DNA of 64,000 nt, taken from contig JAAXJX010000005.1 of assembly GCA_012269595.1 (NCBI GenBank), positions 1 through 64,000 on the forward strand. The letters are read 5' to 3'. Below, piece after piece: positions 19,940 through 36,490 of this stretch. This DNA comes from Planctomycetia bacterium. GTDB taxonomy: Bacteria > Planctomycetota > UBA8108 > UBA1146. The translations under genes and the position numbers were made by a program. Below the pieces are notes generated by a model. It saw only the letters and a program-made list of their open reading frames with translations, was not told where the DNA came from and ran no database searches. How positions within the stretch are numbered: position 1 is the first letter of the stretch; every line of letters begins with the position of its first letter.

Positions 19940-20512
19940 TCAGATCCCCAGGAACCAGCGGTGGAGGCGGGGATCGGTGGTGAGCTCCGGGTGGAAGCAG
20001 CAGGCGACGCAACGTCCCTGTTGGACTGCGACCACCTCATCCTCCCTGCGGGCGATGACGTTGACCTCTTCGCCAATGCGGACAAACTTCGGAGCGCGGA
20101 TGAAGACCCCTTCACCCGTGCCGGGCCCGGGTCCCGATTGCCACTCGACTTCCCCGACGAAGGAGTGGATCTGGCGACCATAGGCATTGCGGTCGACATC
20201 CACATCGATCAGTTCAAAACGGGGTGGAGCCTGCTCCGGATTCTTGCCCATCAGGATGGCTCCTGCGCAGGTGCCCAAAAGGGCCAGGGAACCTGCACGA
20301 ACCCGCTCGGGAATCTGCTGATCAAGACCGTGAATCTTGAGCAGATGATGCAAAGTGGTGCTTTCGCCACCGGGGATCACCAGATGGGTAATCCCCTCCA
20401 ACTCTGCGGGCTTTTTGACTTCGATGGGTTCCGCACCCGCAGCATGCAGGGATCTGAGGTGGGGTTCCACAGATCCCTGCAGGGCGAGAACAGCGGCCTG
20501 AACAGTGGCCAA
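19940..20512 (-). CDS. pdxT: Pyridoxal 5'-phosphate synthase glutaminase subunit
   Basis: VLALQGSVEPH, VIPGGESTT, LGTCAGAIL, CCFHPELTTD; adjacent to pdxS. Confidence 0.92.
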   Translation of the reverse strand: MATVQAAVLALQGSVEPHLRSLHAAGAEPIEVKKPAELEGITHLVIPGGESTTLHHLLKIHGLDQQIPERVRAGSLALLGTCAGAILMGKNPEQAPPRFELIDVDVDRNAYGRQIHSFVGEVEWQSGPGPGTGEGVFIRAPKFVRIGEEVNVIARREDEVVAVQQGRCVACCFHPELTTDPRLHRWFLGI

Positions 20513-20515
20513 GGT

Positions 20516-21442
20516 TTACCAGCCGCGATCCTGAAGGCGCTCCGCTTCCGAAAGCTTGCTGGCATCGATTCCCGGCATCGCTTCTCCCAGGTTTCTGGAG
20601 GCGTTGGCGAGTTCGGCCGCATCTTCAAAGTGGGCGGTGGCATGAACGATGGCCTTGGCGGTACGCAGGGGATCTTTCGATTTGAAGATTCCTGAACCGA
20701 CGAAGACCGCTTCAGCGCCGAGACGCATTGCCAGTGCTGCATCAGCAGGAGTGGCAATACCACCGGCCGCAAAGTTGGGAACCGGGAGTCGGCCTTCCTT
20801 TGCCACCTGACATACGAGGGAATAGGGAGCACCGTGATCCTTGGCCAAAGTCATCCACTCCTCTTCAGGGGCAGTGGTGAGGCGGCGGATTTCGGAGTGA
20901 ATCGCCCGCAGGTGACGCACGGCCTCGGTGATATCACCAGTACCTGCTTCGCCCTTGGTGCGCAACATGGCCGCACCTTCGCCGATTCGACGCAGGGCTT
21001 CACCCAGATTGGTGGCTCCACAGACGAAGGGAACGTTGAAGCGGTTCTTGTCGATGTGGTAGGCGTGATCTGCGGGAGTCAGCACTTCCGACTCGTCGAT
21101 GAAGTCCACTTCGAGGGATTCCAGAATCTCGGCTTCAACAAAATGTCCAATGCGTGCTTTCGCCATCACCGGAATCGAGCAGACCTTTTGGATCTCTTCC
21201 ACTTTTTCGACCGGGGACATGCGGGCAACGCCACCATCCCTGCGGATGTCGGAAGGCACTCTTTCGAGGGCCATCACCGCTACTGCTCCTGCCTCCTGGG
21301 CTACGTGGGCCTCTTCGGCTGTGGTCACGTCCATGATGACGCCTCCGCGAAGCATTTCAGCGAGGCCAATACGGGTTCTGTGAGCCTCAGAGAGCCCGGT
21401 TCCCCGGAGCGGGGAGGAATATCCGTCATTCATCGGTTGCAT
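20516..21442 (-). CDS. pdxS: Pyridoxal 5'-phosphate synthase lyase subunit
   Basis: [79 protein letters not shown]. Confidence 0.95.
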
Positions 21443-21992: not shown

Positions 21993-23306
21993 ATGTCTTC
22001 ACCCAGAGTGTGGCTGATGCTGATCCTCCTGTTCTACCCGGGTTGGGTAGAGGGTCAGTTGTTTCAACGTCCGGTTGTTCTGGAGGGTGTCAGCGCCCCG
22101 ACGCGTGGCGGGACTCTCGATGATCTGACGATCATGATCCGTGGCGGCAGGATCGCCGAGATCTCCCAGACTGCAGACGTGCCACTCATGTCAAAAAAAA
22201 TCCCGGCCCAGGGGCTTTTCGCCACAGCAGGTCTAGTGGATCACGCTTCCGTTCTCACCCTTCCCGTGGGCGGATCGGGAGAGGCCAAGCAATGGAGTTG
22301 GGACGGCTTTGATCGCTTCTCCAGGGATGATATCGAAATGGTTCTCTCTTCGGGCGTGACCCGGGTCCATCTGGTTCCGGTTCGCGGCAGCGGTATCTCT
22401 GGCAGATCCTGCTGGGTTTCACTGGAAGAGGCGGAAGGCGGCGGGCATGGCGTCCTGATCGAGGAAGAGGCTGCCCTTTGCATCAACCTTTCATCGGGAG
22501 CCCCTTCCGCGCGCATTCGTGCTTTCGACAAAATCGTCGAGCAGTTCAACAATGCCCGTGATCGTCGCGACAGCCTCGACAGTTATGAATCAGACCTGGA
22601 GGAGTACCTCGAGGAGCTGAAGAAGTGGGTCGAGGAGCAGGCCAAGGACGGTGAAGGGGAGGGCGAAAAGTCCTCCGAAGAGGGCAAAAAGGACGACGAG
22701 GAGAAGAAGGCACCCGAAAAGCCCCGTCGTCCCGATCTCAATGAGGACAGCGATATCCTCCTGCGTGCACTGGACCACAAGATTCCGGTGTTGATCACCG
22801 CCCGTCGATCTGCAGATCTTCTGAATGCCTGCGAGTTGATTCACATGTTCCAGTTGGACGCGATCATTCATGGGGCGGATGAAGCGGCTCTGGTGATCGA
22901 CGAGTTGAAAAAGTTGGAGGACCTTTCCTTCATTATCGACCAGCCGGCGACGTCGATGGCGGTTACCGGTCCCGGAGTTCTGAGCACGACTCCCAGAAGG
23001 CCTTCCAATCTTGCTGCACTCCTGGAAGAGCATGAAATGGATTGGGTGATCGGCAGCGGAGGCTCAGGAGAAGGTCTTTGGCGAATGACCCGCAAGATGA
23101 CGGGGGAGGCTGCGCTCACGAGTGCACAGTCAACGAACCTCAGAGGTCTTCGCAGTCGTCGGGATTCCCTTCGACCCGGTCAGAATCACATCGTTCTGTG
23201 GAGTGCCAACCCTGCGACCCAGCCAGCAGCTCGCCCCGTAAAGGTGATCATCGACGGTGAAGTGGTCTGGCAGGAAGCCTCTGCGGCGAGAGGAGGGCGC
23301 TTCTAA
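21993..23306 (+). CDS. Secreted amidohydrolase-like protein 1 (HxH absent)
   Basis: Signal peptide; amidohydrolase N-terminal sandwich; GLVDHASV where HxH is expected; charged insertion EEYLEELKKWVEEQAKDGEGEG.... Confidence 0.7.
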   Translation: MSSPRVWLMLILLFYPGWVEGQLFQRPVVLEGVSAPTRGGTLDDLTIMIRGGRIAEISQTADVPLMSKKIPAQGLFATAGLVDHASVLTLPVGGSGEAKQWSWDGFDRFSRDDIEMVLSSGVTRVHLVPVRGSGISGRSCWVSLEEAEGGGHGVLIEEEAALCINLSSGAPSARIRAFDKIVEQFNNARDRRDSLDSYESDLEEYLEELKKWVEEQAKDGEGEGEKSSEEGKKDDEEKKAPEKPRRPDLNEDSDILLRALDHKIPVLITARRSADLLNACELIHMFQLDAIIHGADEAALVIDELKKLEDLSFIIDQPATSMAVTGPGVLSTTPRRPSNLAALLEEHEMDWVIGSGGSGEGLWRMTRKMTGEAALTSAQSTNLRGLRSRRDSLRPGQNHIVLWSANPATQPAARPVKVIIDGEVVWQEASAARGGRF

Positions 23307-24499
23307 TGTTGAATCGCTCCAATCATCAAAAACCGAACTCGGGAAACAGGTTGTTCCTGTTCGGTCTTGCACTGCTCTTCGCTCTGACTCTTTCCTTCCC
23401 GGCAGAAGCCGGTGGCAACGGAGTGGCGATTACCGGTGCACAGGTTCTTCTCCCCGATGGAAATCTGGAGGGGGACTGGGCGGTTATCGTCGGAAATGAC
23501 GGCAAGATTCAGGCATTGGTGCCCGGTTCCACCGTCGATGAGAAGGCGTTTGACCAGGTTTACCGCGCCCCGGAAGGATCCGTCCTGACCCCGGGATTGC
23601 ACGATCTCATGGGTGCGCTGGGTACGCGTGGAAAATCCGGCTCCTTGCGTTCCGGAACCGTTCTGGTCGACGATCAGCTCGACGCCGGGAGCAGTTTCGA
23701 CTCTTCGGACCCGTGGCTGGATGTCGCCGCTCACCACGGGGTGCTCTACACCACTCTGGTGGCGCAGCCTCTCGGAGTCGTCAATGGAAAGAGTGCGACC
23801 TTCCTTTGCCACAGTGATTCTTCCGCCACCCGATTGGGATCCGGAAAAATGATGCTGGCACTGGGTGACTCTGTTCTCTCTGCGAACCGGGTTCCGACCA
23901 GTCGAACCGCATTGCTCTCCATCTGGAGAGAGTGGATGCAGACAGGCCCTGAGGCTCTGAAAAATCCGGGCCTTCTTTACGTGGCGGAGGGAATCGATTT
24001 GCGCCAGGCACTCGCATTGCCCTGGTCAGCCGATGCGATTCCGGTCTTCATTCACACTGGTGGTGATGGCCGTTCCCCGTTGAATCTCGTGAAAGATCTT
24101 CCCAAGCCGGTGCATATGGTCGTCGGACCTCTGTTGGATGGTGGAAGCCGTGCCCATCTCATGATGGCGGTAAAGGCTTCGAAGCAGGGGGTGGAATTAA
24201 GTTTTGCCGGTGGACTTCCGGCAGGTCCCGCCGATCACCTCCGTGGAAGTGCAGCCATGGCTGTTTCCGCGGGGATGGATGCGGCCGCTGCCCGCAGAGC
24301 ACTTTTCAGTAATCCGGCGAAAGTTTCCGGAGCGCTGGAGACGGGAGAGGTTGCCGCAGGCAAGAGAGCGGATCTGGTTCTTTTCTCGGGAGATCCCCTC
24401 GACACCGCTTCCAGCGTGATTCACGTCTGGCGTGGCGGGCAGGGAACGCGGGTTGCCGAACCCGGTAAAGTGAATGAATTGGAGAGCGTCAGAAAATGA
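23306..24499 (+). CDS. Secreted amidohydrolase-like protein 2 (HxH absent)
   Basis: TAATG-coupled start; PGLHDLMGALG; C-terminal EVAAGKRADLVLFSGDPLD. Confidence 0.7.
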   Translation: MLNRSNHQKPNSGNRLFLFGLALLFALTLSFPAEAGGNGVAITGAQVLLPDGNLEGDWAVIVGNDGKIQALVPGSTVDEKAFDQVYRAPEGSVLTPGLHDLMGALGTRGKSGSLRSGTVLVDDQLDAGSSFDSSDPWLDVAAHHGVLYTTLVAQPLGVVNGKSATFLCHSDSSATRLGSGKMMLALGDSVLSANRVPTSRTALLSIWREWMQTGPEALKNPGLLYVAEGIDLRQALALPWSADAIPVFIHTGGDGRSPLNLVKDLPKPVHMVVGPLLDGGSRAHLMMAVKASKQGVELSFAGGLPAGPADHLRGSAAMAVSAGMDAAAARRALFSNPAKVSGALETGEVAAGKRADLVLFSGDPLDTASSVIHVWRGGQGTRVAEPGKVNELESVRK

Positions 24500-26025
24500 A
24501 CAACACATCCAAGAACCCCCTGATGCTGTGGGTCTTTGCTCTGATCACCGGATTCTGTTTCTCGCCACTTCTTGCCGAAGAAGAGGCCGTGAAAACGATC
24601 AACTCCTATGTGGTGAAAGCGGGCAAGGCTCACCTCGGCAATGGCCAGACGGTCGACAATGCGGTCATCGTTGTCCGTGAAGGACGAATCGAAAGTGTCA
24701 CCTCCGGTGGCGCTGTTCCGGAAGGACTGGAGGTCATGGAGGTTGCTGAAGTGACCCCTGGCCTGATCGATGCCAACGCCAAGATCGACGTCATGGACGC
24801 AATGCTCTATCCCACCGAGGATCCACGATTGACGATCCTTCGAGCATTGGGGATGGAAGACCAGTACCACGGCGGCGATGTCTGTCCCTGCGGAACGGTC
24901 TGTCCTGCCCAGACGCTTCACCGTCATGACGAGAGCTGTCTCTTCTGTGGATACCCGGAGCATGATCCCCATGCTCACGCTCATGATGAGGAAGAGGAAG
25001 AAGAGGAACTTGCTGAGCTGAAGCGTGAAGCGATGGCTGCCGGAGTTCCCAGTGAGAGCGGGCTGATCACGGACCAGTCGAGCGAGGTGGTTCCCCAATT
25101 CGAGATCATGGACGGTATCGATCACGGATCAAAAGATTTTGATCGTCTGCTCCAGGAGGGGGTAACCACGGTTTACATCAGTCCCGATGGATCTGCCGTG
25201 ATCGGATCCCGCGGAGCCACGATGCGCACCGGCGGTCCCATCACCGATCGCTTCATGGGAACCGGTTCTGTCAAAACGGTGGTCGGTAGTGACGCCTACC
25301 GCTACGGCACCCGAAATCGCAGCCCTTTCCGCGGCTTTGTTTCCATCTACACCCGTCGTCCCGATTCCCGTATGGGCGTGGGCTGGGTTTTCCGCAGGGC
25401 ATTCTACGATGCCCTTCTTCGTGCCCGGGGCCTTGAGCCGACCGGTGCCGACAAAACCTCTGCGGAGGCTTCCCGGGTTTTGCAGGGAGTCCTCGCCGGA
25501 GATGTACCGATGAGGATTCAGGCCAGAACCGGCAGCGACATCGAAACTGCCTTCCGCTTTGCCAATGAGTTTGGCATTTCCTTCACACTGGAAGATCCGG
25601 TGGAAGCGTGGAAAAGGGTCGATCTCCTCAAGCAAACAGAAACACCCGTGGTCTTCGGCCCCATCTTCGATCAGCCCAGCGGAATCACTGCGGGCTCGCG
25701 TGAAATGCGTAATCGAAGACTTCACACGGTTCGCGATCTTTCTGACGCCGGTATCCCGATGGCTCTCAGTGCGCAGGATCTGCGCGGTGAAGAGGGCCTT
25801 GCCCGTCAGGCGATGCTGGCGATTCGATTCGGTGTCGACCCTGCGGAGGCGTTGCGAATGGTGACTCAGTACCCGGCCCAGTTGCTGGGAATCGAAAAAG
25901 AGGTGGGAACCCTTGAGCCGGGACGCAGAGCTGACCTGGTTTGCTGGAACGGTTCCCCATTCTCAGCCTTGACCCGCATCGAAAAGGTCATGCTGGACGG
26001 CGTACTTTCATACGAGAGAAATTGA
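24496..26025 (+). CDS. Secreted amidohydrolase-like protein 3 with Cys/His-rich insertion (HxH absent)
   Basis: ATGA overlap; CPCGTVCPAQTLHRHDESCLFCGYPEHDPHAHAHDEEEEEEE; C-terminal VGTLEPGRRADLVCWNGSPF. Confidence 0.75.
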   Translation: MNNTSKNPLMLWVFALITGFCFSPLLAEEEAVKTINSYVVKAGKAHLGNGQTVDNAVIVVREGRIESVTSGGAVPEGLEVMEVAEVTPGLIDANAKIDVMDAMLYPTEDPRLTILRALGMEDQYHGGDVCPCGTVCPAQTLHRHDESCLFCGYPEHDPHAHAHDEEEEEEELAELKREAMAAGVPSESGLITDQSSEVVPQFEIMDGIDHGSKDFDRLLQEGVTTVYISPDGSAVIGSRGATMRTGGPITDRFMGTGSVKTVVGSDAYRYGTRNRSPFRGFVSIYTRRPDSRMGVGWVFRRAFYDALLRARGLEPTGADKTSAEASRVLQGVLAGDVPMRIQARTGSDIETAFRFANEFGISFTLEDPVEAWKRVDLLKQTETPVVFGPIFDQPSGITAGSREMRNRRLHTVRDLSDAGIPMALSAQDLRGEEGLARQAMLAIRFGVDPAEALRMVTQYPAQLLGIEKEVGTLEPGRRADLVCWNGSPFSALTRIEKVMLDGVLSYERN

Positions 26026-26076
26026 GCTAAACCTTCCACCCGCACTGCGGAGGAAGCATTGAAACCGAGGTAATCG

Positions 26077-27618
26077 ATGTCGACCCTGACTCATAAATTC
26101 CTGACTCTGGGAATCGCCCTCCTGCTGCTCTTTCAGCAGGGAGTCGCCGAAGCCCAGTCATCTCCCAAGGTGGCCCTGACAGGCGGCAAGATCCTGACTG
26201 TCTCCGGTGCACCCGTCGTCGATGGAACCATTCTGATCGAGAATGGAATCATTCAGGCGGTGGGCGGAGCAGACATGGAAGTTCCTTACGACGCCATGGA
26301 AGTGGATTGCAGCGGAATGATCCTGGCACCCGGATTGGTGGATGCCCACAATCCCGCAGGATTGGACATTCCCAACGAGAATCTGTCGGTGGCCCCCTTC
26401 GTCGATGTCTACGACGCCATCGACCCTTCCCGTTTCTTCTTTGAAAACTCCCTGAGAAATGGCATCTCCACGGTTCACGTCATGCAGGGCAACAACTGCG
26501 TGGTGGGCGGAGTGAGCCGGATCGTGCATCCGATCGGTCTCTCTCCCGATGAGATGACCCGTTTGCCGGGAATCGCTCTCAAGATGTCCGTGACTCCCAA
26601 AGGTGGGTACGACCGCCTTCGCCAGCGTGCAGAACTTCGAGGTGTCTTCAGCGAGTTTGATCGCTGGCATGAAAACCTCGCCGAGACACGCTACGAACAG
26701 GAAGCGGAAAACAGTGATGAATTGAATCCCTTGCCTCCCGCCGAAGCGCGTGAGAAGGGGAAGTCGATGATCCGTGAAGAGGACCTCGACGACCGCCATC
26801 GTCATCTGGCTTATCTCGATGGAGGAAAGCTGGGGGCCTGGATCCATTGCGGTGCTGCGACCGATGTGGCTCCTGCCATCGCGATGATTGCAGACAGGGG
26901 CTGGACCGGAAGGGCGGTTCTCGTGCTGTCCGGGGACGCTCACCTTGCAGCGGCTGAGATTGCTGCGGCCAAGGTACCTGTGGTTCTTGACAGTGATCTG
27001 ATCCACCGCGAAAGAGATGCCATCACCGGAGAGGTGGAGGAGACCTTCATTCCCGAGGTGATGCGTCAGAACAGGATTCGTTTCGCCCTTCAGGCGGGTC
27101 GCAGCAATGTCATGCCGGAAAATCTTTTGACCTATCAGGCTGCGCGCCTGGTTCGTAACGGCATGTCGCAGGAGCAGGCACTGCGCACGATCACTCTGGG
27201 GGCTGCCGAGATCTGTGGGGTCGCAGATCAATACGGATCCATCGACAAGGGCAAGGTCGCCAATATCGTCATGTGGACCGGGAATCCCCTGGAGATGACC
27301 TCATGGGTTCAGAAGGTCTGGATCGAAGGAATCCTCGCATACGACCGTGAGATGGATGCCCGTCTGCAGCGCCTCTTCCCAGAAATGGAGGAAGAGGAGA
27401 GTTCTGACGAATCCAAGAAGATGGAAGAAACTTCCGAGGGAGCATCCGGCGAGGAAGCCAAGGGAGAAGAGGGTTCGACTGAAGAGGGAGCTGGAGCCAA
27501 AGGGTCAGAAGAGACCCAGGAAGATGCCGAGCCCCTGAAAAAGGATGGCAAGAGCGAAGAGAAACCCGCACCCAGCCCCGCTCCCGATACTGATTCGGCA
27601 AGCAAGGGAGGACTCTAG
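26077..27618 (+). CDS. Secreted amidohydrolase-like protein 4 with acidic C-terminal tail
   Basis: PGLVDAHNPAG; YGSIDKGKVANIVMWTGNPLE; Glu/Ser/Lys-rich tail. Confidence 0.75.
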   Translation: MSTLTHKFLTLGIALLLLFQQGVAEAQSSPKVALTGGKILTVSGAPVVDGTILIENGIIQAVGGADMEVPYDAMEVDCSGMILAPGLVDAHNPAGLDIPNENLSVAPFVDVYDAIDPSRFFFENSLRNGISTVHVMQGNNCVVGGVSRIVHPIGLSPDEMTRLPGIALKMSVTPKGGYDRLRQRAELRGVFSEFDRWHENLAETRYEQEAENSDELNPLPPAEAREKGKSMIREEDLDDRHRHLAYLDGGKLGAWIHCGAATDVAPAIAMIADRGWTGRAVLVLSGDAHLAAAEIAAAKVPVVLDSDLIHRERDAITGEVEETFIPEVMRQNRIRFALQAGRSNVMPENLLTYQAARLVRNGMSQEQALRTITLGAAEICGVADQYGSIDKGKVANIVMWTGNPLEMTSWVQKVWIEGILAYDREMDARLQRLFPEMEEEESSDESKKMEETSEGASGEEAKGEEGSTEEGAGAKGSEETQEDAEPLKKDGKSEEKPAPSPAPDTDSASKGGL

Positions 27619-27619
27619 G

Positions 27620-30343
27620 ATGCAGACAGGCAAGTGGACCCGGTTGACCGGGTTACTGCTCCTGATACTGGTGTTGCTCCCATCGGCAGAGGTCCGGGCA
27701 GGCGGAGATTTTGTTCTTCGCGCCGGGCATTTGCATACCGGGCAGCAATCGCTTGTGGATGGAGCCATCGTTGTTCGAGATGGCCGTGTCGTGGATTGCG
27801 GTCCATGGGCCCAGATCTCCGCCGGTTTGGTGGGTGATCTTCCGCTGTTGCATTGGCCTGACGCCTATGTGACACCCGGGCTCGTTGCGGCCTCCAGTGC
27901 GGTTGTCGGTCCCCACCGTGGTGACGAATCGATTTCCGCCGCATTCCGGGCCGTCGATGGATACAACACCTACGGCGATCATCGCCCACTCCTGGAAACA
28001 GGCGTGACCACGATTCATGTCAATCCCGGTGAACACCGACTGATGTCGGGTCAGGGGGCGGTGGTGAAGCTGGAGGGTGCTCCTGCCGGCAGGGTTCTGG
28101 TCGATTCATCCGACCTGGCGATCTCCCTCAGGGATCGGGTCGACAATCCCGATCCCCTTCTGGAGATTCCCTTCCCCGCTTCCAGTGATGTTCAGATTGA
28201 ACCGCCCGCGCCGCAAAGACCCGCAAGCCGAATCGATCGGCTTCTGGCCTTGCGTGAGGCCATCGATATGGCGGGAAAAGATTCTCTCGCCCACGGTGAG
28301 CTCGCCAAGGTCTGGGGCACCGGTGTTCCCATGCGTATCTCCGTGGATGCCGCTCCCGATCTTCAGGGCATGCTTCAGATGATGCAGTCGGAAGGTCGTC
28401 AGGGATATCTTGTAGCGGATGCCATGGTGGGCGGCATGGAAGCCGATCTGGCTGCTGCCGGAGTTCCGGTGGTCCTGCGAATGAGAGGGCCTCAGGGGGA
28501 TATTCCCAACGGAGGCGTCCTTCGCTCCCACGGTTTTCCGCATCTGAAGGACAGTCCCGCATGGGCGCTGGCCCCTCCCGGTGATGACCTTTCCCAGTTG
28601 GGTTGGGCGATGAGTGAAGCAGCCGCTGCGATGGATTCCCCGGAATCGGTGATTCCATGGGTGACTCACAATGCAGCCCGCATCCTCGGAGTTGCAGACC
28701 GGGTGGGACACCTCCATCCCGGAGCCGACGCCGATATCGTGGTCTGGAATGATGCACCCTGGAAGATTCACGCCCGTCCCCTCGAGGTTTTTGTCGAGGG
28801 TTTGAGAGCGTGGCAGCCGGAAGAGCAGCACACCAAAGTGATCAGCGCGGAGACGATCTGGATCTCTCCAGGGGAACAGTTGACTGATGCCCAGGTCCTG
28901 ATCGAGAACGGTGTCATTACCGCGGTCGGTCACCGTGTTCCTCACCCGCCGCATTGCCAGGTGATCGACGCCGGACCCGGCAGTTTTCTTGCCCCGGGAT
29001 TTATCGATTGTTACGGCCATCTGGGATTGGAGGGTGACTCCGCCTCGATGGGAACGGGAGATCGATTGCACCGGACGCTTGGGGTGACCGGCGACCGTGA
29101 GCACAGCGTGGCTCTGGCTGGAGTGACCAGTCAGTTGCTGGCACCGAAGCGACTGCAGCGTGGTGCAGGGATAGGGGTTCTCGCCAAAACTTCCGGAGAC
29201 AGTCGTGAAGCGCGGATCGACGAGCACTACTCGATGCTTCTCCTGGAAATCTCCGATAGCGGATTCGGGGCGATTCGTCGTCTCTTTGATCAAGGGCAGA
29301 AATACCTCGAGTCATGGGAAAAATACGAAAAAGATCTCGCCGAGTGGAAGAAGAAAATAGAAGCCGGGGAGAAGATAGAGAAGAGCAAGCAGGAGGAAGT
29401 CGAGGAGATTCCGGAAGAAAAGCTGGATGACCCCCTGACCGGAATCTGGGAGATGACCATCAGTGGTGGTCCGATTCCCGAGCCTGAAAGCGCCACTCTT
29501 TCGATCACCCTGACCGGATCAGAGTGGGAGGGTCGACTGGTCGAGCCTGCACCGCCCGTTCCGGTGCGGATGGTCGGCACTCTGGAGGGGACGACTCTCA
29601 AGGGGACCATCGAAGTTCCCGACGGAGATCTTCCGGATACCCCGCGGATCGAGGCGGAACTCACCGGTGAAGATTCGATGGAGGGCAAGATTTCGATCCT
29701 GGCCTTCTCTGCGGATCTTTCCGGGACCCGGACCAGCAAGGAGGCGAAAACCTTCAAGGTCACCCGTCGGAAGAAGCAGGACGATGATGGCCGACCGAGG
29801 CCGCCCAGAGTCCGGGCGACTCTGGAACCGATCCGCTCGGTGCTGGAAAAGAAGATTCCGGTTCTCGTATCGGTGAGAGGCTTCAACACCCTGCCGTCCG
29901 TGGTCGATTACTTCACCGGCAAAGAGATTCCTTTTGCCGTTCAACTCGATCAGTTCATGCGCTTCCATAAGGATCTTCTTCTGGAGAAGAAAATCCCCGT
30001 GTTGCTGCCGGATCAGATGAGTTTCGAAGCTGCCGACACCACCTACATGCCCTCCACCTGGTTGGGACGCTCAGGAGTGACTGTTGGCTTCAGAAGTTCC
30101 GCTGCTGATGGCGCCCGCAGATTGCCCTTCAGGGTCCGTGGAGAAGTGGCCAATGGAATGGCGGCGGATGCGGCGCTGGATGCGCTGACCCGGGGAGCGG
30201 CCAAGGTGGTCGGTGCCCATGACCGAATTGGTCAGATCGGCGTCGGCATGGAAGCAGACCTGCTCATTTGGAAGGGACATCCTTTCGAAGGGGGTAGCCG
30301 CCTCGAGAGGGTATTTGTCAATGGAGAGGAGGTCCAACGATGA
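27620..30343 (+). CDS. Tandem (double) amidohydrolase-like protein 5 with inserted beta-rich domain
   Basis: Two amidohydrolase-like halves (first ends HPGADADIVVWNDAP, second VGMEADLLIWKGHPF); coiled-coil plus TGIWEMTISG..SGTRTSK insertion. ATG 27620 follows the TAG of the previous gene. Confidence 0.75.
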   Translation: MQTGKWTRLTGLLLLILVLLPSAEVRAGGDFVLRAGHLHTGQQSLVDGAIVVRDGRVVDCGPWAQISAGLVGDLPLLHWPDAYVTPGLVAASSAVVGPHRGDESISAAFRAVDGYNTYGDHRPLLETGVTTIHVNPGEHRLMSGQGAVVKLEGAPAGRVLVDSSDLAISLRDRVDNPDPLLEIPFPASSDVQIEPPAPQRPASRIDRLLALREAIDMAGKDSLAHGELAKVWGTGVPMRISVDAAPDLQGMLQMMQSEGRQGYLVADAMVGGMEADLAAAGVPVVLRMRGPQGDIPNGGVLRSHGFPHLKDSPAWALAPPGDDLSQLGWAMSEAAAAMDSPESVIPWVTHNAARILGVADRVGHLHPGADADIVVWNDAPWKIHARPLEVFVEGLRAWQPEEQHTKVISAETIWISPGEQLTDAQVLIENGVITAVGHRVPHPPHCQVIDAGPGSFLAPGFIDCYGHLGLEGDSASMGTGDRLHRTLGVTGDREHSVALAGVTSQLLAPKRLQRGAGIGVLAKTSGDSREARIDEHYSMLLLEISDSGFGAIRRLFDQGQKYLESWEKYEKDLAEWKKKIEAGEKIEKSKQEEVEEIPEEKLDDPLTGIWEMTISGGPIPEPESATLSITLTGSEWEGRLVEPAPPVPVRMVGTLEGTTLKGTIEVPDGDLPDTPRIEAELTGEDSMEGKISILAFSADLSGTRTSKEAKTFKVTRRKKQDDDGRPRPPRVRATLEPIRSVLEKKIPVLVSVRGFNTLPSVVDYFTGKEIPFAVQLDQFMRFHKDLLLEKKIPVLLPDQMSFEAADTTYMPSTWLGRSGVTVGFRSSAADGARRLPFRVRGEVANGMAADAALDALTRGAAKVVGAHDRIGQIGVGMEADLLIWKGHPFEGGSRLERVFVNGEEVQR

Positions 30344-31581
30344 GGATCTCTGCCAATCAATGGATTTTGAGTCTGGCCTTCCTGTTCCTCGTTTGTCTTT
30401 CGGCGGATGCAACCGCCGAGACTCTGGCATTCAAGGTCGGCAAGGTGGTGACCTTTGATACCGAAGAGCGGGTGATCAACAACGCGACCGTGATCGTCGA
30501 AAATGGAAAGATCACGGCGGTGGGGAAATCGAAAGAGATCATGATCCCTGCCGGAGCAAAGGTCTTTGAGCACAAGGATCTGTGGCTGGTTCCCGGCTTT
30601 GTCGAGTGCCACAACCACACCGGAGGCGGATCGCCGGACCTCCATGACTACGTCTACCTGACAAACCCCGGATTGCGCACGCTGGAATCCATCGTCCCCG
30701 ACAACCCGGAGATGATTCGCGCTCGCGCCGGTGGTGTGACGACGGTACTGACGATTCCGGGTAGCGGAAACAATATGTCCGGCTTCGGCACGATCATGAA
30801 GACCTCCGAGGGCACGGTTGCGGAATCCGTCATCAAGGCTCCCGGATCCCTGAAGATCGCCCAGGCAGGAAACCCGGAGCGTTACTTCTACGGTGTGGGA
30901 CGTTCCTTCATGAACTTCAACACCCGTCAGACCCTGCGCAAGGCACGGGATTACCACTTGGCAAGAACCGAGTGGGAGGAGGGTCGCCTCGAGGTCGAGC
31001 CCGCCTTCAACCTGAACTGGGAAGAGTTCCGACCGCTGTTCCGTCGTGAAACCGTGGCTTCGGTTCACACCCAGATTTACCAGGTCCTGATGACCACCGT
31101 CAAAATGGTTGCAGGAGAATTCAACATCCGCACGGTGCTGGATCACTCCACCTTCGACGCCTGGAAAGTCGCTCCGCTCGTCAACGCGGACGAATCGATT
31201 TACACCATCAATGGACCGAGACAGCTTCACTACGATCGCACCCAGAGACGACTGATGGGCAATGCTGCCCGCTGGTGGCAGGGGGGTGTCCGCAAGTTGG
31301 GTATCAATACCGACTCTCCGGTGGTACCGCAGGAAGAGTTGGCCTACCAGGCGAGCATGGCCTGCTACTACGGCTGGAAGCCCTACGAGGCGCTGAAGGG
31401 GATTACCAAGATTCCCGCAGAAGCGCTGATGATGGACCACCGTCTCGGCAGCATCACTGTGGGCCTCGACGCCGATTTTTGCCTTTGGACCGGTGATCCG
31501 ATCGACCCCCGTTCATCCTGCGAGATGACGGTGATCGATGGTGAAGTCACCTACGAAGCCAGTGAGAAGAGGGTTTTCTAA
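30340..31581 (+). CDS. Secreted amidohydrolase 6, apparently complete metal-ligand set
   Basis: PGFVECHNHTG (HxH), SVHTQIYQV, VLDHSTFDAW, INTDSPVVPQEE, VGLDADFCLWTGDPID. Confidence 0.8.
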   Translation: MRISANQWILSLAFLFLVCLSADATAETLAFKVGKVVTFDTEERVINNATVIVENGKITAVGKSKEIMIPAGAKVFEHKDLWLVPGFVECHNHTGGGSPDLHDYVYLTNPGLRTLESIVPDNPEMIRARAGGVTTVLTIPGSGNNMSGFGTIMKTSEGTVAESVIKAPGSLKIAQAGNPERYFYGVGRSFMNFNTRQTLRKARDYHLARTEWEEGRLEVEPAFNLNWEEFRPLFRRETVASVHTQIYQVLMTTVKMVAGEFNIRTVLDHSTFDAWKVAPLVNADESIYTINGPRQLHYDRTQRRLMGNAARWWQGGVRKLGINTDSPVVPQEELAYQASMACYYGWKPYEALKGITKIPAEALMMDHRLGSITVGLDADFCLWTGDPIDPRSSCEMTVIDGEVTYEASEKRVF

Positions 31582-32900
31582 TGAGAATCATTCAATGGAC
31601 CTGGATCCTTGCCCTGCTGGCGGGGGTCTCCTCGGATCTGCTGGCGGGTGACCGGGTCACGGTTATTCGTGCAGGCTCCGTGATCACGGGTACCGGTGAG
31701 ACGATCAGTCCCGGTGAAGTGGTCATCGAAGATGGCAAGATCACCCTGATTGGCAATCAGCTCGAGATTCCTGACAACGCCAAAATTATCGAGGCCCGAA
31801 ATCAGACTCTGATGGCGGGACTGGTTCTCTCCCGAACGAGCCAGGGGCTGATCGGCGGAAGAGTCAGCGGTGTAGGCTGTGACCAGACGGTTCTCAGTCG
31901 TTGGGTCGATGGGGAAATGGACTGGGAATCTTTCCTTGAGGCTGGATTTGTTGCTGCCGCCTTTGTTCCTGCCGGCACCGGATTTCATGGACAGGCAGTC
32001 ATCGTGCACACCGCACCTGAAGCAGAAAACCGGATCCTCAAGGAGTCGGTCTATCTGCCACTGACGGTGACGGGCTCTACTTCACTCTACCGAACTGTGT
32101 CCCAGGCCTTTGACGGTGCCCGCAAGGAAATCGAAAAGGTGAAGAAGGCTCGCGAAGAGTGGGACAAAAAGCAGGAAGAGGCCAAGAAGGCCGCCGAAGA
32201 GGCGAAGAAGAAGGAAGCGGAAAAAGGAGACAAGGACAAGGCTGCAGCCGAGAAGGGGGACAAGTCCAAAAAAGACGAAGGTCCCAAGGAGTTCAAGGCG
32301 CCGCCGATGAATCCGGCTCTGGTTCCGCTGGTGGATATTCTCGAAGAGAAAGCCTCCGCCATGCCGCTGGTGATCTCGATCTCTTCTCCCGGTTCGATGC
32401 TGCATGTCGATGCGGCCATGTCGAGCGTCAAGGAGCTGGAGGATCGGGATCCACCTTCGATTTTCGTCTTGCCGGGAGCCCGCAACGGCGCATTCCATGA
32501 AGTGGTCGATGAACTGATCGAACGCAAGGCGACGGTCATGATTCCTCCCGGAATGAGCGTTCTGCCCGATACCTACTATCGCTACCACGTCCCTGCTGCA
32601 CTCTCACGGGGAGGGTGTTCTGTGATCAGCCTGCCGCGTGCGGACAGTGCCAGTGGCATGAGAGATCTTCCGGGATATCTGGCGGAGCAGGTTCGATACG
32701 GCATGTCTGAAAAGGATGCGATCGCCTCACTGACTTCTGCCCCGGCAAAGTTTTTGGGACTGGGCGATCAAATGGGGACGATCGAGGAGGGCAAAGCGGC
32801 CCACCTGATTCTTCTCAATGGATCGTTACTCGACCCGGGAGTGAAAGTCATGAAGACCATGATCTCCGGTGAAGTGGTCTGGGATCGGGAGGATCGCTGA
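31581..32900 (+). CDS. Secreted amidohydrolase-like protein 7 (HxH absent)
   Basis: TAATG-coupled; MAGLVLSRTSQGL; Lys/Glu/Ala coiled insertion; GTIEEGKAAHLILLNGSLLD. Confidence 0.7.
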   Translation: MRIIQWTWILALLAGVSSDLLAGDRVTVIRAGSVITGTGETISPGEVVIEDGKITLIGNQLEIPDNAKIIEARNQTLMAGLVLSRTSQGLIGGRVSGVGCDQTVLSRWVDGEMDWESFLEAGFVAAAFVPAGTGFHGQAVIVHTAPEAENRILKESVYLPLTVTGSTSLYRTVSQAFDGARKEIEKVKKAREEWDKKQEEAKKAAEEAKKKEAEKGDKDKAAAEKGDKSKKDEGPKEFKAPPMNPALVPLVDILEEKASAMPLVISISSPGSMLHVDAAMSSVKELEDRDPPSIFVLPGARNGAFHEVVDELIERKATVMIPPGMSVLPDTYYRYHVPAALSRGGCSVISLPRADSASGMRDLPGYLAEQVRYGMSEKDAIASLTSAPAKFLGLGDQMGTIEEGKAAHLILLNGSLLDPGVKVMKTMISGEVVWDREDR

Positions 32901-34306
32901 TGTTGAAGAAGATTCGAACCATCACCGCTCTGTTGGCTTTTGTCATCGTCTTCACGGACATGCCGGTGATTCCGGGTGGCTACAGTTTGTGCGAGAGCAT
33001 CTCTGAAGCACAGGATCCACCGCGACGCCGTCGTGGACGTCGCCGTCAGGCTCCTCCTCCCGCACCGGAACCGGAGCCGGAGAAGAAGGAGATTGTCGCT
33101 GCAGACTCGGACGATGAATACCTCGTCATCCGCGGGGCCACCCTTCACACCGTGACAGGTGGAACTCACCGAAACGGAACCCTGATCTGCAAGAACGGCA
33201 AGATCTACCAGATCGTTGCCGGTCCTGTGGATGGCCCGGAGGGGGCAGAGGTGGTCGACGCGACGGGGCACCATGTCTATCCGGGTCTGGTCGCATTTCG
33301 TTCTTCTGGCCTGGTCGGTTCCGGCGAAGCTGAGAAGAGCCAGGACCCCTTCGATCTCGACACGACGATGGGTCTGGCCGCCGGAATCACTGCTACCTGG
33401 AATGGCTCGAGAGTCACCAAGCTGGTTCATGGGAGCCTTGAGGATCTGACGATCCGCCCCAAATCATTCAGCAGTATCAATTACAGCTACAGGAATCCCA
33501 GAGGACGCAGTGAATTGCGTCGTGCGATGGATCGGGTTCAAGAACACCTGAGAGCGTTGGAGCGCCACGCTGAGGAGAAAAAGAAAGATCCGGAAGCCAA
33601 AGCCCCCGATGACAAATGGATCAAGGGGATCTACGCCACGGTTCGCAGTCTTCTCACCGGACAAAGCCAGGCTCTGGTTCGTGCCCGTTCGATGGCGGAG
33701 ATTCGCGAGTATTCAGCCTTGGCCCGCAAATACGGTTTTGAGATCGTCTTTGAGGGGGCCGAGGAGGGGTGGATCGATCCCGGGGTTCTTTCGAGAACCG
33801 GAGCCAGTGCCGTCATTTCACCTCGCGCCCGCGTGGATGCCAATGAGGACCTCAATCGTGAAAGTGGATCGAGCATTGAGAATGCCAGAATGCTCCACGA
33901 TGCCGGTGTGCCGTTGGTCATCATTCCGCAAAGCACAGGTATTGCTCTCTGGGGACTCGCCGGGCGGGATTTGTCTCACCTTCCCCTGGAGGCGGCCTTT
34001 GCGGTAAGAGGCGGTTTGCCAGAACAGGTCGCCATCGAAGCGATCACCATCGAACCTGCGAGATTGCTGGGTGTGGCTGATCGTGTGGGCTCACTTGAGG
34101 TGGGAAAAGATGCCGACTTCATCATTACCGACGGAGACCTGCTCAGTTACATGACTCTGGTTCGTTGGGCTTTCGTCAACGGCAAGATTCAGTACGACAA
34201 GGAGGAAGAGGGCATTTTGGATCACATCAGACCCGATGGTGATCTCGACGCTCCTCCGCCGGACGATCACTGGCCACGCCGATTGGGAGATCCCCTCAAA
34301 GGCTAG
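32900..34306 (+). CDS. Secreted amidohydrolase-like protein 8 (HxH absent)
   Basis: TGATG-coupled; YPGLVAFRSSGLVGS; RVGSLEVGKDADFIITDGDLL. Confidence 0.7.
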   Translation: MLKKIRTITALLAFVIVFTDMPVIPGGYSLCESISEAQDPPRRRRGRRRQAPPPAPEPEPEKKEIVAADSDDEYLVIRGATLHTVTGGTHRNGTLICKNGKIYQIVAGPVDGPEGAEVVDATGHHVYPGLVAFRSSGLVGSGEAEKSQDPFDLDTTMGLAAGITATWNGSRVTKLVHGSLEDLTIRPKSFSSINYSYRNPRGRSELRRAMDRVQEHLRALERHAEEKKKDPEAKAPDDKWIKGIYATVRSLLTGQSQALVRARSMAEIREYSALARKYGFEIVFEGAEEGWIDPGVLSRTGASAVISPRARVDANEDLNRESGSSIENARMLHDAGVPLVIIPQSTGIALWGLAGRDLSHLPLEAAFAVRGGLPEQVAIEAITIEPARLLGVADRVGSLEVGKDADFIITDGDLLSYMTLVRWAFVNGKIQYDKEEEGILDHIRPDGDLDAPPPDDHWPRRLGDPLKG

Positions 34307-34444: not shown

Positions 34445-36490
34445 ATGCCACCCCAATTTTCCCGGATTTTCCGGTTGTCCATTCAGATCCTCTGCCTGAT
34501 TGCCATGCTTCAGGGGCCTCAGCTCTGGTCGCAGTGTGTGGAAGATGATTTGCAGGTCTTTGGTATCAACCCCGGGGATCGGGTGGGCCGTTCTGTTGCC
34601 GTCAGTGGAGGCCGGGTTTTTGTCGGTGCTATCGGTGACGATGGCGGAGGCTTTCTCAGTGGCAGTGTCCGTTCATTCAGAAGAGGGGTTTCCGGGTACC
34701 AGTTGGAGCATGTCTTCAGTGGATTGTCCGGGGCAGAGTACGGATCCTCTTTGGCAGCGGATGAAAACTGGCTCGCCATCGGTGCCGTCGGGCTCGGATA
34801 CATCGAGATGTGGAAGAGGGACCGTTTTGGGTGGGTTTACGACTCGATCATCGTCGACAGTCAGGGTGCAGATGGGGACGGCTTCGGTAGTAGTCTCGAT
34901 CTTAAAGACGGCGTACTGGTCGTCGGAAGTCCCACATATACGACCGATGTCGGAGAAGCAGGTTGTGTCACAGTCTGGCGACTCAACTCCATGGGCCAAT
35001 GGCAATTCGAAGAGAGACTGTTGGCTGAAGACAGAGTTGAAGGTGATAACTTCGGAACCTCCATATCGGTAGACAGCCTTGGGCAACTGTTGGTCGGATC
35101 ACCTGGCAGAGATGCTTCAGGGGTCGATAGCGGAATTGCCATTCTGTATTCAGGCGGTCCTGATGGTTGGTTTGAATCGGCCAGATTTGGTAACAATGTG
35201 GCACAGCCGGGGGACAGATTTGGAACCTCTGTCAGTCTCCTGGATGATTACGCTTTCATAGGCAGTCCCTATTCCAGTTTTTCCGGGCCCTTTGCCGGAC
35301 AGGTGGTTTCCTATCGCCGGTCGAACTCGATCTGGATTCTTCAGCCCTTCCTGACACCGGACAGCGGTTCTTCTGGAACCGGTTTTGGAGCGACCCTTGC
35401 CATCGACGGAAATCTATTGGCAGTGGGATCGCCTATGGACATGGGTAACGAGGCAATGCCAACCGGAAGAGTGCGAATCTATCGCTACATTCAAGAGTGG
35501 ATCCACGAGAGTGATCTGACTGGATACGCTGGTTCATTTCTCGGAACGGCTCTCGCCATGGACAAGGGAATGATCTTCGCAGGAGCTCCTCTCGATTCGA
35601 CTTCCGCTGTTCTTGGAGGGGGTGTGAAGTTCTCAGTCAGTGGAGACAGTGATTGCGACGGAGATGGTGAACTCGATGCCTGTGAGATTGTCTCAGGGGC
35701 TGAAAACGACTGCGATCTCGACGGAATCCCCGATTCCTGTGCAATTGCTGAGGGTCTGGTAGCGGATTGTGATGGGGATCTCATTCCTGACAGTTGTTCG
35801 ACCCTTTCAGGAGGAGTTGCGGATTGCGACGCGGACGGTGTCCCGGACGAATGCTCCACAACTCTGGGTCTGGTGTCGGACTGCAACGAGGATCTGATTC
35901 CCGACGTTTGTCAGCAAGACTGCAACCAAAATGGGGAACCGGACGTCTGTGAAGTTCTCATTCCCTCAAATGACTGTGATCAAAATGGTCAGCTGGATGA
36001 GTGTGAGGTCAGCAATGGCCAGTTGTCCGATTGTGACGGAGATGGTCTCCCTGATATCTGTGAAGATGACTGCGATCAGGATGGTCTGCCTGACGTTTGT
36101 GCAGTCCTTTCCGGAGTAGTCGAGGATTGTAACGGTAACCTGCATCCGGATGTTTGCGATTTGAGTGATCCACTGTTAAACACGAATGCCAACGGTTACG
36201 TAGATGATTGCGAACCGACTTTTATCCGCGGGGATGCAGATGGTACCCCTGGAGTCCGGCTGGCAGATGCGGTGCTGCTGATCTCAAGGGTTTTTGGTGA
36301 TCTGGTGATCGTCAACTGTGAGGAAGCCGCCGATGCCAATGGCGATGGATTCCTGGATATTTCTGACGGCCTCTACCTGCTCTTCTATGAGTTTTCTGGT
36401 GGAGCCAGTCCACCTTCACCATTCCCTGAGTGTGGAATCGCCCCTGTTGAGGCCCATTTCTCATGCACTGAACATCCATCCTGTCCCTGA
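34445..36490 (+). CDS. Secreted FG-GAP-like beta-propeller with Ca-binding repeats and dockerin-like C-terminus
   Basis: Signal peptide; about seven GxxFGxSLxxxxxxLxVGSP repeats; DxDxDGxxDxC repeats; FIRGDADGTPGVRLADAVLL..DANGDGFLDISDGLYLL. Confidence 0.8.
   Translation: MPPQFSRIFRLSIQILCLIAMLQGPQLWSQCVEDDLQVFGINPGDRVGRSVAVSGGRVFVGAIGDDGGGFLSGSVRSFRRGVSGYQLEHVFSGLSGAEYGSSLAADENWLAIGAVGLGYIEMWKRDRFGWVYDSIIVDSQGADGDGFGSSLDLKDGVLVVGSPTYTTDVGEAGCVTVWRLNSMGQWQFEERLLAEDRVEGDNFGTSISVDSLGQLLVGSPGRDASGVDSGIAILYSGGPDGWFESARFGNNVAQPGDRFGTSVSLLDDYAFIGSPYSSFSGPFAGQVVSYRRSNSIWILQPFLTPDSGSSGTGFGATLAIDGNLLAVGSPMDMGNEAMPTGRVRIYRYIQEWIHESDLTGYAGSFLGTALAMDKGMIFAGAPLDSTSAVLGGGVKFSVSGDSDCDGDGELDACEIVSGAENDCDLDGIPDSCAIAEGLVADCDGDLIPDSCSTLSGGVADCDADGVPDECSTTLGLVSDCNEDLIPDVCQQDCNQNGEPDVCEVLIPSNDCDQNGQLDECEVSNGQLSDCDGDGLPDICEDDCDQDGLPDVCAVLSGVVEDCNGNLHPDVCDLSDPLLNTNANGYVDDCEPTFIRGDADGTPGVRLADAVLLISRVFGDLVIVNCEEAADANGDGFLDISDGLYLLFYEFSGGASPPSPFPECGIAPVEAHFSCTEHPSCP
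35651..36160 (+). repeat. About ten TSP3-like Asp/Cys repeats (protein-level)
   Basis: DCDGDGELDACEIVSGAEN / DCDLDGIPDSCAIAEGLVA / DCDGDLIPDSCSTLSGGVA / ... 13- and ~19-aa units. Confidence 0.8.

Follow-up and report, generated by a model that had tools for sequence, protein, structure and literature searches.

A conserved operon of Planctomycetota probably encoding an exported hetero-oligomeric amidohydrolase with one catalytic and eight pseudoenzyme domain types

Enzymes with pseudoenzyme partners have been described before, but in most cases only one or two subunits are dead. Within the amidohydrolase superfamily, the CRMPs (dihydropyrimidinase-related proteins) form hetero-oligomers of inactive members, which are eukaryotic, cytosolic and closely similar paralogues. 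The beta ring of the eukaryotic 20S proteasome is an ordered assembly of paralogues in which only some subunits are catalytically competent. Septins are described in the same terms (PMC10731463). In Pseudomonas aeruginosa, a dead dihydroorotase homologue is required for the assembly of its active partner in the ATCase-pseudo-dihydroorotase dodecamer (PMC7053772), so that the use of a pseudo-amidohydrolase to assemble a partner is already established as a principle; the active partner there is a transcarbamoylase and not an amidohydrolase, and the complex has one pseudo-subunit type, a role in cytosolic metabolism and no paralogue array. Here we analyse an operon in a 64,000-nucleotide stretch of a Planctomycetia bacterium (assembly GCA_012269595.1, contig JAAXJX010000005.1, positions 1 to 64,000; hereafter the window), which lies on contig C21 of a host assembly of 2.8 Mb in 60 contigs. 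The operon probably (at roughly 0.7) encodes an exported, periplasmic or surface, hetero-oligomeric metallo-amidohydrolase machine, in which a catalytic domain, P6, is joined by eight pseudo-domains. From the P. aeruginosa ATCase the operon differs in how many pseudo-paralogues it has, in the rigid order of these and in that the active partner shares their fold. Unlike the CRMPs, which are among the PDB matches of the P6 profile, the operon combines nine anciently diverged domains with an active subunit, and the proteasome and septins have different folds and are not exported bacterial complexes. We found no description of this operon in the literature searched, which covered few subscription papers. 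Its parts are as follows (aa, amino acids; six-letter strings give the residues at the six metal-ligand positions).

21993..34306, plus strand: whole operon, eight genes and nine domains (P1-P4, P5N+P5C, P6, P7, P8)
21993..23306, plus strand, ATG at 21993: P1, predicted exported pseudo-amidohydrolase domain, 437 aa, AVCTGG
23306..24499, plus strand: P2, predicted exported pseudo-amidohydrolase domain, 397 aa, MAMYHG
24496..26025, plus strand: P3, predicted exported pseudo-amidohydrolase domain with Cys-rich insert, 509 aa, NKKQDQ
24871..24975 (approximate), plus strand: Cys/His-rich insert of P3, CPCGTVCP...H...CLFCGYP, from sequence comparison
26077..27618, plus strand: P4, predicted exported pseudo-amidohydrolase domain, 513 aa, HPKHLG
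27620..30343, plus strand, ATG at 27620: P5, two-domain protein, both predicted pseudo-domains, SAASAP (P5N) and YHLSLS (P5C)
about 27620-28834 and about 28835-30340, plus strand: extents of P5N and P5C, from the domain split of P5
29429..29737, plus strand: beta-rich inserted domain of P5C, about residues 604-706 of P5, from predicted secondary structure (AlphaFold2)
30340..31581, plus strand: P6, the one domain that has every ligand of the subtype-I binuclear metal site, 413 aa, HHKHHD
30610..30618, plus strand: H91-N-H93 of P6 (HxH, strand 1), in 110/111 aligned orthologues, the other one truncated at a contig end
30853..30855, plus strand: K172 of P6, expected carboxylated bridging lysine, 141/141
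31066..31068, plus strand: H243 of P6, 141/141
31144..31146, plus strand: H269 of P6, 140/141
31312..31314, plus strand: D325 of P6, expected general base, 141/141
31581..32900, plus strand: P7, predicted exported pseudo-amidohydrolase domain with Lys/Glu-rich insert, 439 aa, RSPSGA
32900..34306, plus strand: P8, predicted exported pseudo-amidohydrolase domain, 468 aa, RSSRGQ

The metal ligands separate P6 from all other domains of the operon. P6 has the HxH of strand 1 (H91, H93), the lysine of strand 4 (K172), the histidines of strands 5 and 6 (H243, H269) and the aspartate of strand 8 (D325). In the orthologue family alignment all six are present in 139 of 141 P6 domains; of the two incomplete ones, the first is cut off where its contig ends and the second, with HHKHQD, comes from a four-domain relative outside the nine-domain operon. 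In the other eight families, with 612 domains in total, no domain is complete. In the P1, P5N, P7 and P8 families the ligands are mostly all gone, the P3 family retains the lysine in 41/69 members and the P5C family the second histidine in 65/76, four of its members retaining HHK and D. The P2 family includes some distant orthologues with up to five of the six ligands (one member has five). This partial, graded loss in P2 and P5C suggests that the pseudo-domains descend from active copies and decayed stepwise and independently of each other. A replacement metal site was looked for, but the P1, P2, P3, P5N, P7 and P8 families show no conserved His/Asp/Glu/Cys cluster; the polar residues that they do conserve, chiefly Arg, Asp and aromatics, lie off the ligand positions. 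No histidine reaches 85% conservation in P1, P2, P3, P4, P5N or P8, and a single one does so in each of P5C and P7. The P8 family has its own strongly conserved non-catalytic signature. That P6 would be the only catalytically competent domain type of the operon is well supported by these alignments.

A first-pass annotation of the window, made from its letters alone, had listed metal-site motifs for nine amidohydrolase-like domains (GLVDHASV ... GLVAFRSS), had seen the metal set only in 30340-31581 and had proposed one active subunit with pseudoenzyme partners. The motifs are present, and ligand mapping on the orthologue families agrees on the sole complete domain and adds K172 of strand 4, which the annotation lacked. 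Alternative metal ligands in each domain, named beforehand as one of two observations that would speak against the proposal, were looked for and none was found. One active subunit with pseudoenzyme partners is thus well supported by sequence, with the addition that the P6 type reaches up to five copies in one clade.

Pfam Amidohydro_1 is above its cut-off in six of the eight window proteins, sub-threshold in P2 and without any Amidohydro match in P1. When orthologue profiles were compared with hhalign, each of the eight other families matched P6 with a probability of 100% and E values of 1e-53 to 1e-65 over nearly the full length, including the P1 family (100%, E 1.5e-53). The count of nine amidohydrolase-like domains therefore holds despite the weak Pfam results for P1 and P2, and the predicted fold of P1-P5, P7 and P8 is the superfamily barrel across the full domain. 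The best PDB match of the P6 profile is 3ooq, an uncharacterised amidohydrolase of Thermotoga maritima (E 2.1e-78, profile positions 30-405). The same entry is the closest to P5 by structure: an AlphaFold2 model of P5 from 47 sequences (predicted local distance difference test, pLDDT, 87.1; predicted template modelling score, pTM, 0.76) found it as best PDB match in Foldseek with a TM-score (TMt) of 0.74. The 3ooq entry contains a single protein species in ten chains, for which we claim no ring size, and pseudo-paralogues beside it were not seen in anything retrieved.

Pfam and NCBIfam gave no specific function for the operon proteins, only the superfamily. The best NCBIfam neighbour of P6 was NF051886 (E 1.2e-19), but the score of 70.6 bits is far from the cut-off of 500 and assignment as a Xaa-Pro dipeptidase was rejected; the Xaa-Pro/Xaa-Arg dipeptidases (NF051886; PDB 3mtw, 3be7, 3n2c) are relatives of P6 by NCBIfam and PDB profile matches, and nothing pointed to dipeptide substrates for P6. 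A substrate for TM0814/3ooq/cd01309 was not found in the literature searched, which returned only unrelated papers. A lead to metal-dependent bile salt hydrolases (PMC13081902) was dropped as these belong to another amidohydrolase branch (PF07969/YtcJ-like). An ATCase-pseudo-dihydroorotase type complex was likewise rejected, as neither the operon nor its flanks encode a transcarbamoylase or any other conserved protein.

All eight open reading frames are present at their annotated coordinates, on the plus strand and without internal stops. Five of the seven junctions overlap (P1/P2, P6/P7 and P7/P8 by 1 bp, P2/P3 and P5/P6 by 4 bp), and gaps of 51 bp and 1 bp are found at P3/P4 and P4/P5. Over the approximately 60-90 loci available per junction, 4-bp and 1-bp overlaps rank with the most frequent spacings, and from these gene overlaps we infer that the eight genes are co-transcribed. 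The N-terminus of each window protein has a hydrophobic signal-like segment, and a crude signal-peptide heuristic was positive for 634 of 732 operon open reading frames of relatives. The earlier description of eight same-strand, largely coupled genes, most with signal peptides, was confirmed; of its periplasmic or surface location, export is supported and no finer location.

A scan of named genomes with the P6 alignment gave 290 relatives. The best 80 of these 290 were inspected and nearly all were named Planctomycetota, Phycisphaerae, Pirellulales and similar, with some called only 'bacterium' and one labelled Bacillota. Close relatives of the window include MCMED-G47 and TMED53, with 99% identity in P6. 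In a sample of the phylum (295 genomes, completeness at least 85%), P6 scores are split by a natural gap: 90 genomes match strongly (E <1e-130), and the weak matches have E >1e-90. The P8 profile also has strong matches in 90 genomes, above a narrow gap of about 9e-55 to 9e-49. Comparing the two lists by hand, P6 and P8 occur together in 89/295 genomes; P6 stands alone in G081, where the contig stops 1.7 kb past P6, and P8 alone in G010, where it is on a 3-kb contig. The operon is thus present in about 30% of the sampled genomes and absent from about 70%.

In each of the 57 loci that extend 9.5 kb or more upstream of P6 and 3.2 kb or more downstream, P6 is accompanied on its strand by eight or more further family domains. 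The co-conservation that the first-pass annotation had put forward for a synteny check, and whose absence it had named as the other observation against its proposal, was borne out by these loci and by the joint occurrence of P6 and P8, complete except at contig ends. In annotated loci the order is P1-P2-P3-P4-P5N/P5C-P6-P7-P8 on one strand wherever the paralogues can be distinguished; some domains of distant clades, the Pirellula-like one among them, received an ambiguous label from the automatic family assignment, but their number and position fit. In L046/L101, L098, L116 and L153 the P4 reading frame sorts before P3, which we take as a start-codon artefact since it was called from an over-long upstream start (901-995 aa). 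Neighbouring genes are fused in several genomes, as P1+P2 (L050, L051, L123, L124), P1+P2+P3 (L049), P4+P5 (L043/L063) and P7+P8 (L057), and P5N and P5C are fused everywhere. P6 occurs as two to five tandem copies in some clades, among them genome group f36, with four to five in L139, L140 and L141, giving up to 13 domains, and each duplicated copy examined is ligand-complete. The operon is no artefact of assembly, as G297 and G163, whose genomes consist of just one or two contigs, also carry it, and recurrence of order and content across the phylum puts the pattern far beyond chance. Genome G085, with a contamination estimate of 5%, carries two clearly different versions of the operon (L147 and L148), one with P1 and P2 fused.

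In a tree of 105 rows and 11 groups, P3, P4, P5N, P5C, P6 and P8 each form one clade with starred support, and P1, P2 and P7 require two changes each. Family labels change 11 times on the tree, where at least 10 changes are needed and shuffled labels give a mean of 77. As the positional families are clades or nearly so, the nine paralogues predate the divergence of their carriers; whether the operon was inherited vertically or moved as a unit, both fit this old divergence. The ratio of nonsynonymous to synonymous substitution rates (dN/dS) is 0.019-0.081 for all eight genes and lowest in P3 and P6. It was calculated against the close relative L060, which has 99% identity in P6, because dS is high or saturated against more distant genomes. 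The dN/dS check planned in the first-pass annotation thus points to purifying selection on all eight genes.

These results can be combined into a mechanism. The nine paralogous beta/alpha-barrel domains would occupy distinct, fixed positions in an assembly. The binuclear site of P6 (H91, H93, carboxylated K172, H243, H269, D325) would hydrolyse a C-N bond in an amide, peptide or cyclic amide, and such chemistry is the standard mechanism of the superfamily at a binuclear metal site. The eight domains lacking this site would act as scaffold, substrate-binding or gating elements. An ordered, exported hetero-oligomer is the simplest account of pseudo-domains that are under selection, always occur with P6, keep a fixed order and fuse with their neighbours. 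In favour of this account, the expansion in one clade also affects P6, the presumed catalytic subunit, and every copy is complete. Assembly into a physical complex, the number of each subunit in it, carboxylation of the lysine, the sharing of tasks and the class of substrate are all inferred from sequence.

Several observations weigh against this hetero-oligomer. Co-inheritance of the operon alone is not proof of physical contact. The pTM of the P5 model is only moderate, and an AlphaFold2 model of the natural P1+P2 fusion of L124, from an alignment of five fused sequences, was uninformative, with pLDDT 51 and pTM 0.34 (an alignment enlarged with single-domain rows misplaced P2 onto P1 and was not used). 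A promoter and terminator scan gave signal no higher than chance. Lastly, the P4 family retains the first histidine in 64/80 and the lysine in 70/80 members, so P4 might still bind metal or a ligand. Such retention in most P4 orthologues would fit an alternative in which the pseudo-domains are separate exported binding proteins or sensors, whose old pocket captures different ligands and which share only regulation with P6. Loss of metal ligands need not abolish binding, and most of these domains are indeed exported as separate proteins. We nevertheless consider this unlikely, since repeated neighbour fusions, the rigid order and all-or-none co-occurrence favour a stoichiometric assembly, and no conserved transporter or signalling partner adjoins the operon. 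The two to five ligands kept by P4, P5C and some P2 orthologues could also mean that domains other than P6 are enzymes with other chemistry or other ligands, i.e. metal-free or mononuclear hydrolases, and the superfamily does tolerate mononuclear variants. The missing His/Asp/Glu/Cys cluster in six of the families and the position of their conserved polar residues outside the ligand sites make this improbable.

With eight of nine domains non-catalytic, all exported, and charged helical inserts suited to contacts, the array could instead be a structural coat or lattice of the envelope, with the barrel as a mere building block and with the activity of P6 either of secondary importance or used in maturation. 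However, no other subunit is nearly as conserved as P6, whose ligands are invariant; the duplicates are P6 and complete, and an essential envelope layer would hardly be missing from most of the sampled genomes; we regard this as very improbable. Tandem paralogues often decay, and the graded ligand loss in P2 and P5C could be read as neutral decay of duplicates with no common function. This has almost nothing left in its favour, as it is already contradicted by the dN/dS of 0.02-0.08 in all genes, by the family-specific conserved signatures and by the fact that every complete locus, even in classes far apart, has kept the domains.

Some of the domains carry additional modules. The Cys/His-rich insert of P3, of which variants occur in many but not all P3 orthologues, is likely a small metal-binding module judging from its residues. 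The P5 model has a 33-residue helix (549-581) followed by the beta-rich insert at approximately 604-706; this insert has no Pfam match and has W205, D199 and R299 (P5C numbering) conserved throughout the family. The window copy of P4 ends in an acidic low-complexity tail. Outside the operon, no conserved neighbours were found beyond the family-level clade, and since the flanking genes are not conserved further than this, the eight genes form the unit. Within the family, pdxT- and pdxS-like genes (19940-21442, minus strand, divergent from the operon) are conserved neighbours. Directly downstream, at 34445-36490, a secreted FG-GAP-like protein is encoded, which by eye has calcium-binding-type and dockerin-like repeats and is conserved there in the family (14 loci), not in other clades.

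Smaller sets of a complete or near-complete domain with pseudo-domains also exist, having two to four domains versus nine. The same assembly encodes on contig C51 (L039:2708-5313) an HHKHHD domain followed by a pseudo-domain with RVANGE, and corresponding two-gene sets occur in its genus and family. About three domains, one of them complete, make up a set in G031, and about four, with HHKHQD, a set in G032; small sets of this kind include L158 and L157. Pairing of active and pseudo-domains is thus a wider habit of this branch, with the nine-domain operon as its extreme. L158 and f29 genomes, which lack the nine-domain operon, encode proteins of approximately 1,070 and 1,500 aa that combine several amidohydrolase-like domains and are possibly a compact version of the same idea.

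Tentatively, and with rather more doubt than confidence, we suggest that the operon represents a new class of exported machine: an asymmetric particle with at least nine amidohydrolase-fold positions (as many as 13 with multiple P6 copies), in which neighbouring positions would be filled by the products of neighbouring genes, the eight pseudoenzyme positions would have specialised binding or gating roles and only P6 would be catalytic, the whole having evolved from a homo-oligomeric enzyme. If true, such a nine-position particle would parallel, in a prokaryote, the way in which the subunits of eukaryotic proteasomes have diversified. The operon is an unusually clear natural record of the way in which a probable homo-oligomer might become an obligate hetero-oligomer, and the approximately 90 sampled genomes with graded ligand decay, fusions and P6 multiplication make that route testable. 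For the Planctomycetota, the operon points to a probable exported activity in roughly 30% of the sampled genomes, and to the catalytic gene as the one to assay.

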